A DNA stretch of 64,000 nt from Staphylococcus sp. (lineage in GTDB: Bacteria; Bacteroidota; Bacteroidia; Bacteroidales; Muribaculaceae), in the NCBI GenBank assembly GCA_023665865.1, contig JAMPDC010000001.1, forward strand, positions 880,081-944,080, in the 5' to 3' direction. This document shows, piece after piece, positions 49,373 to 54,596 of the stretch. The notes under the pieces are model-generated. The model was not told where the DNA came from, made no database searches, and worked only from the letters and a program-made list of their open reading frames with translations. Positions within the stretch are counted from its first letter, which is position 1; each line of letters begins with the position of its first letter. The position numbers and the translations under genes are program-made.

Positions 49373-49380
49373 TATATTTG
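49373..49380 (+). promoter_or_regulatory. -7 promoter element (TATATTTG) of the CHASE2 gene
   Basis: TATATTTG fits TAnnTTTG and is 31 bases before the ATG at 49412. A T-run (end of the asd terminator) is at the -33 position instead of TTTG. The same eight bases recur before the CHAT and FecR-like genes. Confidence 0.55.
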
Positions 49381-49411
49381 CATATTAAACACCCTCTTAA
49401 ACGACAGTACC

Positions 49412-50701
49412 ATGAACGACGATACCCGGCACAACAATTTGGAGACAGAAAAGCCAGACAATCCCTCAGCAACAGAAAATGGTGATGGGAAGAATGAGTC
49501 TGCCAATGGTACGCCCGAACAAAACCATCCAAAAATCCCCTGGAAATGGGATAAAAAACGCTGGATACATGCTGCTGATATATCAATCGTATTGCTGTTG
49601 ACCGGGGTATTGGCATGGATGATGAAATTCGATCCGTTTCTGCCTATCCAACAGGCCACCGACTTCAATTCGTCGGATTTCTATGATCGCGTAGCCTATT
49701 ATAATCAAGATCGTAAAGTGAGCAACAATGTCGTCATCGTTGCAGCCGACAGCCTGCTGACCCGCGGAGAAATAGGGGAACTTCTCAGCCGTATAGGAGA
49801 CTTGAAACCGGCTGCGATAGGACTCGATGTGATAATGTTAGGTGAAATTGACCCCGAAGGGGAAGCAGAGGTACTCGCAGCGCTCGACAAGCTACCCGAC
49901 ATCGTGCTCCCGATAAGCGTTACAGAAGAGGGCAAGATAGATCCCGCCTCCGATTCCTTCTATTTCGAGATATTTCCGGACTACAATAAAGGTGTAGTCA
50001 CCTTCATCTCCGAAGGAAACAACGGCCTGGAACGCTTTTTCACCACAGAATTCGAAATGACCGACGGAAGCAGGCTGCCGTCGATGGGACTTGCCCTTGC
50101 CCGCATGAAAGACGCAGAAGCTACTGCCGGTTTCATGAATGATGCATCTGTCAAAGAAAGACTGAACTTCAACATCGCCACCCCGCTTGTAATGAATCCC
50201 GGGGAAATCACACCTGACAATGCCTATCTCATCGAGGGGAAGATTGTGATGGTAGGAGACATGAACAATCAAGGCGATCTGCACAATACCGCGATAGACG
50301 GACGCCTGCCGGGAATCTTACTGAATGCAGCCACCGCCGAAACTATCCTGACAGGCAAACGAATTGTACAGATGCCTGCCTGGACAGTTGATCTTCTGGC
50401 ATTTCTTTTGGTAGCAACGGTCGCGGCTCTTTATTCTTTCTGTATTGACAGGCCCTGGCATATCATTGCCATAATGGGAATAAAGCTCACACTCGCGGTG
50501 CTGATACTGTTTGGTGGCTACTGGATCTACAGACGATTCAGCATCACCATAGATTTTACTTATACTGTCGCATTGCTTGGTTTCAGTCTCATGCTGTGTG
50601 ATCTGTGGTTCTCTCTGACACGCTGGCTGCTTCCTTGCATGAAAATCAAAGACAGAGAGACTGCCACAGAATCACCATCAGTCGAGAATGACAAATCCTG
50701 A
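49412..50701 (+). CDS. CHASE2-domain membrane sensor protein without output domain
   Basis: The 429-residue protein has a polar, Asn/Glu-rich cytoplasmic N-terminus (about 1-50), one membrane helix (about 55-72), an extracytoplasmic CHASE2 domain (about 75-320; VVIVAADSLLTRGEIGELL, AIGLDVIMLGE, then VGDMNNQGDLHNTAIDGRLP with GILLNAATAETIL) and three membrane helices (about 325-345, 350-372 and 381-402). CHASE2 domains normally feed a kinase, cyclase or diguanylate cyclase; here the protein ends after a 27-residue polar tail, so any output must come from a partner. The frame is open from 49292, but upstream sequence is the asd terminator, so the ATG at 49412 is used. It converges with the CHAT gene, the 3' ends overlapping by 24 bases. 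A 60-base line at 50461 has 27 G or C, lower than neighbouring genes. Confidence 0.87.
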   Translation: MNDDTRHNNLETEKPDNPSATENGDGKNESANGTPEQNHPKIPWKWDKKRWIHAADISIVLLLTGVLAWMMKFDPFLPIQQATDFNSSDFYDRVAYYNQDRKVSNNVVIVAADSLLTRGEIGELLSRIGDLKPAAIGLDVIMLGEIDPEGEAEVLAALDKLPDIVLPISVTEEGKIDPASDSFYFEIFPDYNKGVVTFISEGNNGLERFFTTEFEMTDGSRLPSMGLALARMKDAEATAGFMNDASVKERLNFNIATPLVMNPGEITPDNAYLIEGKIVMVGDMNNQGDLHNTAIDGRLPGILLNAATAETILTGKRIVQMPAWTVDLLAFLLVATVAALYSFCIDRPWHIIAIMGIKLTLAVLILFGGYWIYRRFSITIDFTYTVALLGFSLMLCDLWFSLTRWLLPCMKIKDRETATESPSVENDKS

Positions 50702-53749: not shown

Positions 53750-53757
53750 TATATTTG
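53750..53757 (+). promoter_or_regulatory. -7 promoter element (TATATTTG) of the FecR-like gene
   Basis: TATATTTG on the plus strand lies 38 bases before the ATG at 53796, facing away from the identical element of the CHAT gene in the same 133-base gap. Confidence 0.55.
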
Positions 53758-53795
53758 CCAAAAATAACGACCAAAACTTTGGCTGAGTGTATCGT

Positions 53796-54596
53796 ATGAA
53801 AAAATCTCTAAATTTATTCTTTTGTATTTTCTTTCTGATCGCCGTCACATTTCCTGCCACCGGTGGAACTGTCTATGTAGTGGAAAACGTCAGAAACACT
53901 GTTAAGGTTAAAAAGAACAAGAGTTTTTCATGGATTCCCCTGAACAGGCTGAATAAAATCGGCCTTCTTGACTCGATTGAAGTGGCACCCGACGGAAAAT
54001 TGGTGTTTTTCAATGCCGGAGACGGACGTAAGTATTCTGTTGAAAAAGGAAAGAAGATCCGGGTCTCCGATATCGTCGGCAAAACCAGAAATGAAGGCAG
54101 CAAAGGAGTGATAGCCTCTGTGATTTCCACCGGATTCACAAATATGTCGAAAGAACGGCGCCGGCCGGCAGCGAGCAACCGCGGCAGCGGAGACGCCGAT
54201 CCGACAGCCATAGCGATATACAATGCTCTCCTCGAAGGCAAAAGCTCAAACACCGGCGCATGGCTACAAAAACAACAGGGCGACAACTCCATCAGATTTA
54301 CCATCGGAAACTCAGGCCCGGCCATAGTTTATGCCGAGCTATACGCGATCCGGAAATCCGACGGCTACTTCGAGCGTATCAATCTGATGGACGAGGCAAA
54401 CCTTCCGTTAGTTGCCGGTGCGGAAATCGAACTCCCCTATGAATTTGCAGATGCCACCCAGGGATTCTCATATCTTCTCGTCGCATCCGGAAAAGTTTTC
54501 GACGCCATCTATCTCACCAAATTGTTCAATAGTTCCAAACCGATGGAAAACGTTTCAGCAAACACTCCGGCGGTAACATTCATACCCGTTAAGTGA
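53796..54596 (+). CDS. Exported FecR/DUF4384-like protein of the CHASE2-CHAT module
   Basis: The 266-residue protein has a signal peptide ending near residue 22 (FPATGG). Residues about 24-90 have short beta strands (TVYVVENVRNTVKVKKNKSF, LDSIEVAPDGKLVFFNAGD) like a FecR-type domain. Residues about 95-150 form a linker rich in Arg, Ser and Gly. The last 110 residues (SIRFTIGNSGPAIVYAELYA, VAGAEIELPYEFADATQGF) resemble DUF4384, a domain seen beside caspase-like or CHAT proteases. The GTG at 53787 could also start, but the ATG at 53796 is preferred. It is divergent from the CHAT gene. Base composition is low in GC (22 of 60 at 53881). Confidence 0.72.
   Translation: MKKSLNLFFCIFFLIAVTFPATGGTVYVVENVRNTVKVKKNKSFSWIPLNRLNKIGLLDSIEVAPDGKLVFFNAGDGRKYSVEKGKKIRVSDIVGKTRNEGSKGVIASVISTGFTNMSKERRRPAASNRGSGDADPTAIAIYNALLEGKSSNTGAWLQKQQGDNSIRFTIGNSGPAIVYAELYAIRKSDGYFERINLMDEANLPLVAGAEIELPYEFADATQGFSYLLVASGKVFDAIYLTKLFNSSKPMENVSANTPAVTFIPVK

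Follow-up and report, generated by a model that had tools for sequence, protein, structure and literature searches.

Signalling CHASE2 proteins usually carry a cytoplasmic output domain, e.g. a kinase or a cyclase, and accounts of CHASE2 receptors usually have them signal into the cell. Here, a three-gene region is considered in which a CHASE2 membrane protein, a predicted CHAT cysteine protease and a small exported-looking protein (P0001, P0002 and P0003, respectively; the last is termed the third protein) are encoded within the window, i.e. the whole 64-kb stretch of contig JAMPDC010000001.1 that was analysed. In the BiofilmReg operon of Burkholderia, one of the closest described systems, a LysM-FecR protein is encoded with a CHASE2 histidine kinase (PMC5192318). 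As in the window, an exported FecR-domain protein there accompanies a CHASE2 receptor with one plus three membrane segments, and the sensing parts are periplasmic; however, according to that account, which gives the CHASE2 ligand as unknown, the CHASE2 protein ends in a cytoplasmic histidine kinase and a response regulator is also present, whereas the window protein lacks any cytoplasmic output and the pair is accompanied by the gene for a cysteine protease with a signal-like N-terminus. Similarly, the mtxA cluster of magnetotactic bacteria encodes an exported Ig-like/TPR protein followed by a CHASE2-adenylate-cyclase gene, for which periplasmic signalling was suggested (PMC4439547); it shares with our region a small exported multi-domain protein beside CHASE2, while it differs in its cyclase output and no protease is described in the available text of that article. 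The pairing of the receptor with a FecR-like partner is thus known from Burkholderia, with mtxA being similar, and it is the output that differs, namely an exported-looking cysteine protease that changes from locus to locus.

Activation of a caspase by a CHASE2 receptor has also been proposed in print, as a receptor-caspase cascade with cytosolic caspases for cyanobacteria (PMC7475262), and in Trichodesmium a caspase-CHASE2 fusion was described whose caspase was placed in the cytoplasm by the authors (PMC3501461, PMC2853523). The latter resembles the present loci in combining a caspase-fold protease with a one-plus-three-helix CHASE2 protein; in contrast to these models, the unfused proteases described below carry signal-like segments and are accompanied by a FecR-like partner. 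Caspase homologues with signal-like N-termini were noted earlier (PMC3501461), and a Nostoc cluster combines CHASE2 with two WD40 proteins (PMC5587647). The TPR-CHAT protein of Craspase (type III-E CRISPR) is likewise a partner-controlled CHAT protease, although, as described in PMC9729208, it acts with an RNA-guided complex. In searches of an open-licence full-text library, which excludes preprints and most subscription journals, no description of the three-part arrangement was found, nor any co-mention of 'CHASE2' with 'CHAT domain' or of 'FecR' with 'CHAT domain'.

To place the region, 297 genomes of the same family (Muribaculaceae) were surveyed, and all 57 CHASE2 loci, the window included, were read (individual loci are given as L numbers). 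The genes of the region are genuine and form a set; the constant core consists of CHASE2 and the third protein, and CHAT is one of several proteases that occupy a slot beside it. CHASE2 is present in 49 of the 297 genomes and CHAT in 65, and in 10 of the 18 genomes having both the two lie no more than 7 kb apart, where 0.19 such pairs would be expected, while a member of the third family (E < 1e-3, six-frame search) accompanies CHASE2 in 53 of the 57 loci. In the window genome, P0001 is the sole match to PF05226 and P0002 the sole match to PF12770 at E 0.001, in neighbouring genes. An additional full triad was identified in L214 (Muribaculaceae), and L212 and L213 carry CHAT without CHASE2 within the stretch; a search for further relatives returned five, two of which are contigs already counted (G274 and G025). 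Furthermore, in L130, L155 and L176, though counted as unlinked, CHAT is accompanied by a divergent CHASE2-like gene and also by a small exported-looking protein. The original prediction had anticipated that the three families would co-occur across genomes, as is indeed observed, and had named as contrary outcomes the lack of a conserved neighbourhood or CHAT homologues with neither an export signal nor a CHASE2 gene, neither of which was the pattern found. Its proposal of a split periplasmic sensor-protease system gains from the recurrent neighbourhood and from natural fusions, but had overlooked the exchangeable protease, the core of CHASE2 and the third protein, and the accessory nature of the insert.

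The profile of the third family was built from 44 seeds, leaving out the window protein, L108 (a wrong protein) and L121 (doubtful). It matches P0003 at E 2.4e-18, and each seed was recovered at E <= 6.9e-12 by a profile from which that seed and its kin of at least 50% identity had been excluded. Most of the 53 positive loci are the profile seeds themselves, and those missed are L108, L116, L120 and L121 (E 0.004 for the last). Calling the longest open reading frame (ORF) first had hidden the third genes of L113 and L114 behind antisense ORFs, and both were found by the six-frame search. Weak matches to this profile are not proof of membership, because a 347-residue L206 protein that does not adjoin CHASE2 and looks unrelated was also matched (E 1.1e-5). 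The third gene almost always lies directly after CHASE2 or is fused with it; where a gene intervenes, it encodes CHAT (the window) or a caspase (L100).

A protease is encoded in 35 of the 57 CHASE2 stretches, being CHAT in 10 and a caspase in 25 (L085 holds both and was counted under CHAT; Pfam confirmation of the slot proteases was performed on representatives). All 25 unfused caspase-type ORFs near CHASE2 begin with a hydrophobic segment; a WD40-like gene was labelled beside the caspase in 20 of the 25 caspase stretches, and 12 also have both a DUF4384-like gene and a 210-residue gene. Additionally, fusions tie the parts of the module together: CHASE2 and the third protein form a single ORF in L086 and L070, while the L076 protein combines CHASE2 with a caspase domain, a weak SEL1 match lying between them. 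Both of the former retain a fifth hydrophobic segment (barely at threshold in L086) where the signal peptide of the third protein would sit, suggesting that the third protein lies outside. In a tree of CHAT proteins (71 rows), the CHAT of the window clusters with three more that are CHASE2-linked (98/97); the CHASE2-linked label requires five changes, one of which is forced by well-supported branches. The CHAT label likewise needs five changes on the CHASE2 tree (55 rows, L075 and L120 being left out), and since well-supported branches there force at least four, gain or loss of CHAT on the CHASE2 core must have happened repeatedly.

The module as a whole is an accessory insert between asd (48228-49238) and nifJ (54794-58351; pyruvate:ferredoxin oxidoreductase-like), both named by eye in the ORF listing of the window, because asd stands directly before nifJ, without the module, in five of 25 other loci of the same genus. 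In the remaining 20, neither asd nor module proteins were present within the stretch of at most 1.5 kb available before nifJ.

Other genes were observed at or near such loci. An exported-looking protein resembling a class A beta-lactamase-type serine hydrolase (by eye) is encoded right after the CHASE2-third pair in L079 (3445-4320) and L088 (9216-10103), its gene overlapping the third gene by 4 bases in stretches that hold no CHAT or caspase; it is perhaps another output enzyme. A leucine-rich-repeat surface-like protein (by eye) is encoded next after CHAT in two CHAT-type loci (L084, 10775-11872; L086, 6612-8693), and in L102 a caspase is fused to leucine-rich repeats (PF13306). The window genome has, far from CHASE2, a SEL1-type caspase locus with a DUF4384-family neighbour (L178; G000:C1, ~2494600-2496000). 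CHAT genes with no CHASE2 nearby (L135, L137, L141, L145 and similar) frequently have a short caspase gene a few genes away, CHAT and the short caspase possibly representing a second paired protease system.

P0001 matches PF05226 above the cut-off (E 6.4e-14; 52.6 bits, cut-off 26.3) over residues 90-338, and its assignment is further based on the flanking hydrophobic segments revealed by hydropathy, one N-terminal (57-73) and three C-terminal (329-345, 351-367 and 386-402); an additional stretch within the domain is barely at the threshold. No other Pfam family was above cut-off, ~27 residues follow the last segment, and no kinase or response regulator was detected in P0001 (Pfam) or, by eye, among the listed neighbouring ORFs, in agreement with the earlier description of a CHASE2 protein with four membrane helices and no output domain. 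The only match of the CHASE2 profile to solved structures at E 1 (E 0.33) was regarded as chance. P0002 is a CHAT protein according to its profile match (PF12770; E 2.6e-44; 152.3 bits, cut-off 24; residues 674-992) and its His-Cys dyad, and thus a predicted protease; the dyad, His827 (codon 51182-51184) and Cys891 (codon 50990-50992), is invariant in all eight complete CHASE2-linked CHATs aligned. P0002 begins with a hydrophobic, signal-peptide-like segment and has no match among solved structures by sequence. The exported TPR-CHAT protein first proposed therefore stands as regards the CHAT domain, the dyad and the hydrophobic N-terminus, while its TPRs are only hinted at (TPR_14, E 0.087).

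P0003 has a hydrophobic, signal-peptide-like N-terminus and comprises a FecR-like N-terminal part, a linker and a C-terminal part, with no Pfam, NCBIfam or PADLOC family above cut-off. In profile-profile comparison, the N-terminal part of its family resembles FecR-type proteins with 93% probability (E 2.9e-7) over just 48 columns, the six templates being encoded beside long CHASE2 ORFs of other classes and PF04773 having been checked in L193 only. At the level of Pfam, FecR membership was rejected, with no PF04773 match in P0003 or in any of 35 family members (0/35). A likeness of the C-terminal part to DUF4384 (PF14326), also part of the original prediction, was likewise rejected, as there was no Pfam match and the best hhalign result (11.5% probability) fell in the wrong region; of the predicted FecR-/DUF4384-like exported protein, what remains is a FecR likeness at the level of profile comparison. 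A DUF6375 match in one of 35 members (E 0.0093) and 14 matches of the third profile to solved structures at E 1 (best E 0.065, mostly designed propellers) were regarded as chance. The first part of the family is related to third-type proteins from other families of the class (97%, E 5.3e-11), over 107 columns that end at a conserved Arg, and MtxA_C weakly matches one such protein (L202, E 0.034), no match being reported for P0003. A low-confidence model of P0003 has strands to about residue 112, coil at 113-142 and strands again, confidence being lowest at ~111-140.

The coordinates originally given for the region proved correct (Table 1). The gene orientations are + / - / +, with CHASE2 and CHAT convergent and overlapping by 24 bases (50678-50701) and CHAT and the third gene divergent. 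Because of these orientations, which rule out co-transcription of the three genes, and of a separate TATATTTGC for each gene, the module represents three transcription units and not an operon. Three exact copies of TATATTTGC occur in the window (0.20 expected; none of 100 shuffles reached three), all directly upstream of module genes, one per gene, and we take this element to be a form of the Bacteroidota -7 promoter element, a variant of the general promoter of the phylum. Isolation of the region by terminators and promoters, as previously suggested, holds in part: a hairpin resembling a Rho-independent terminator precedes the CHASE2 gene (-28.3 kcal/mol, z -5.96; matched by none of 200 shuffles) and each gene has its promoter element, but no comparable terminator was detected in the 51 bases folded 3' of the third gene (z 0.27).

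Table 1. Features of the three-gene region (positions in the window)
Feature	Position	Strand	Basis
CHASE2 membrane protein P0001, 429 aa	49412..50701	+	PF05226 match, hydropathy
CHAT cysteine protease P0002 (predicted), 994 aa	50678..53662	-	PF12770 match
Small third protein P0003, 266 aa, signal-peptide-like N-terminus	53796..54596	+	Family profile
Arg129-Gly130 of P0003, candidate cleavage or docking site	54180..54185	+	Family column conservation
TATATTTGC, -7-type element of CHASE2 gene	49373..49381	+	Exact-copy count in window
TATATTTGC, -7-type element of CHAT gene	53687..53695	-	Exact-copy count in window
TATATTTGC, -7-type element of third gene	53750..53758	+	Exact-copy count in window
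Rho-independent terminator-like hairpin between asd and the module	49306..49351	+	RNA fold

Across the phylum, 395 genomes were sampled, of which 137 have CHASE2 and 188 CHAT; eight of the 137 CHASE2 genomes belong to the same class but to other families. Of 11 loci read from these eight genomes, nine were positive with the CHASE2 profile. In four of the nine (L200-L203) the following gene matches the third profile, three (L199, L204 and L206) have a small exported-looking neighbour beyond the reach of that profile, and L205 and L208 have neither. Caspases lie near CHASE2 in L199, L204 and L206. A papain-like protease (PF00112) with a DUF4384 domain is encoded in L200 (10663-12096), three genes after CHASE2 and two after the third-type gene, and represents a cysteine protease of a different clan in the same slot. 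In seven loci from other classes, two of them chosen for a nearby CHAT, CHASE2 lies within an ORF of 730-895 residues. L192 and L193 have such an ORF with a FecR-type protein and exported-looking CHATs nearby, and two CHAT genes of ~820 and ~1850 residues were seen in this neighbourhood.

Column conservation within the third family highlighted a G-x-x-x-R motif, the G column ranking first of 277 (43 of 45 members) and the R column tenth (34 of 45), with both residues present in 32 of 45 (L083, L094 and L074 were dropped from this alignment as incomplete). The window protein carries the form A-A-S-N-R129, in which the G position is occupied by Ala and the R position by Arg. Of seven third-type proteins printed from other families, five have the motif by eye (L200, L201, L202 twice and L204), whereas the L206 protein has the Arg alone and that of L199 neither residue. 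Cleavage at the conserved Arg would be consistent with the report that orthocaspases cleave after basic residues (PMC6426788); the residue could equally well serve in docking or in the structure. Arg129-Gly130 is a candidate cleavage or docking site of P0003.

Based on the above, the region is probably a receptor-latch-protease module of the periplasm whose cysteine protease can be exchanged, and it would lie on the outer face of the inner membrane. The parts, their recurrent linkage and their fusions are computational observations, as are the conserved dyad, the shared -7 element, the accessory status and the way in which CHAT and caspase stand in for one another, while the signal-like segments and the hydrophobic segment retained in two fusions point to a periplasmic location. 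In this scheme, CHASE2, lacking a cytoplasmic output, would be the membrane receptor for an envelope signal, and the FecR-like third protein would dock at its sensing domain as adaptor, latch or substrate. The output would be an exported cysteine protease, CHAT in the window. Upon signal perception, the latch would free the protease or would itself be cut, probably near the conserved Arg, and the freed protease would then cut envelope targets; the physical interaction, the order of activation and cleavage at Arg129 are all parts of this proposal, and the third protein may be a substrate of the protease. A wider and distinctly more tentative version is that of a general extracytoplasmic pathway of Bacteroidota, in which CHASE2 senses, the third protein is cut after the Arg of G-x-x-x-R, separating its N- and C-terminal halves, and CHAT, caspase and papain-like proteases serve as interchangeable executioners.

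A number of points weigh against the receptor-latch-protease interpretation. Firstly, 22 of the 57 CHASE2 stretches have no protease (although at least five, i.e. L067, L074, L075, L120 and L121, are cut by contig ends), the others showing that the CHASE2-third pair can dispense with a neighbouring protease; among the ten linked CHATs, that of L108 is a piece of 76 residues at the end of a contig. Export was rejected as a hallmark of the module: with a hydrophobic start defined as a 9-residue hydropathy of at least 1.9, eight of the ten CHASE2-linked CHAT ORFs begin in this manner (the remaining two being cut at the 5' end), and so do 55 of 62 CHAT ORFs not beside a Pfam CHASE2 (two of the seven exceptions being cut 5'), such that an export-like N-terminus appears general to the CHATs of the family. 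The L076 fusion has no fifth segment over the 17-residue threshold, a signal-like stretch being visible by eye, and its caspase may therefore lie on either side of the membrane. The model of P0003 (from four sequences) is poor, with a mean pLDDT (predicted local distance difference test) of 44.1, and gives no usable structure. TATATTTGC is not private to the module, as the element with the spacing of the CHASE2 gene to the ATG occurs four times genome-wide (zero for the reversed pattern); being a variant of the general promoter, it does not show shared regulation of the three genes. Finally, the motif Arg was found in 31 of 33 protease-flanked members and in three of 11 that lack a neighbouring protease (Fisher p 3.6e-5), or in 31 of 33 and six of 17 after six short members were added by eye (p 1.9e-5), where L075 was left out as its contig ends there and L067, whose contig ends inside a presumed caspase gene, was counted as protease-linked. 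This association reflects only two to three independent changes on the tree and is not taken as significant when relatedness is counted. Moreover, L201 and L202 have the Arg but no neighbouring protease, while the L199 protein lies beside caspases and lacks it.

The alternative that survives best, though we judge it rather unlikely, is that CHASE2 and the third protein form a self-contained envelope unit, the proteases being no more than common neighbours that serve its processing or turnover. The protease-free stretches agree with such a unit, as do the LysM-FecR protein encoded with a CHASE2 kinase in Burkholderia (PMC5192318) and the exported protein encoded with the CHASE2-adenylate-cyclase gene in magnetotactic bacteria (PMC4439547). 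It accounts less readily for a protease in 35 of 57 stretches that has been changed repeatedly, for the CHASE2-caspase fusion of L076 and for a window CHASE2 protein without cytoplasmic output. A module for anti-phage defence or cell suicide, its protease activated by envelope damage or by phage entry so that the cell dies, appears less probable still. Caspases and CHAT proteases are effectors in defence systems, and both the accessory nature of the insert and the exchangeable protease would suit this explanation. Bacterial conflict systems include EACC2 proteins, for which CHASE2 is named as one variable domain among several (PMC8195603), and CHASE2-caspase proteins were drawn as death receptors in cyanobacteria (PMC7475262). 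The EACC2/TRADD-N systems resemble the module in placing CHASE2 within a putative death and immunity network that also uses caspases; their constant parts, however, are different, and the text of PMC8195603 gives no match for FecR. Against this alternative, P0001-P0003 match no PADLOC-DB family at E 1, leading us to reject a defence-island reading, the eight CHASE2-linked CHATs give a single TPR match and a single BovA match, and the neighbours asd and nifJ look housekeeping. Chance proximity or joint insertion without shared function, for which the separate promoters and mixed orientations might speak, is highly improbable given a CHASE2-CHAT adjacency of about fifty times expectation, the fusions and the same gene set in differing orders in other genomes.

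Should the receptor-latch-protease interpretation be correct, the control of caspase-type proteases by receptors would extend to the envelope, in gut bacteria, with a constant core and changing proteases. A protease output on the same side of the membrane as the sensing domain is plausible here, and cleavage of the small partner would provide a direct readout in the search for a CHASE2 ligand. If the wider pathway also holds, it would be a bacterial counterpart of receptor-activated caspase cascades, wholly periplasmic and without a cytoplasmic partner, nucleotide signal or kinase. Overall, a constant sensor and partner combined with a changing enzyme suggest an alarm system of the cell envelope that works by protein cleavage and can be switched.

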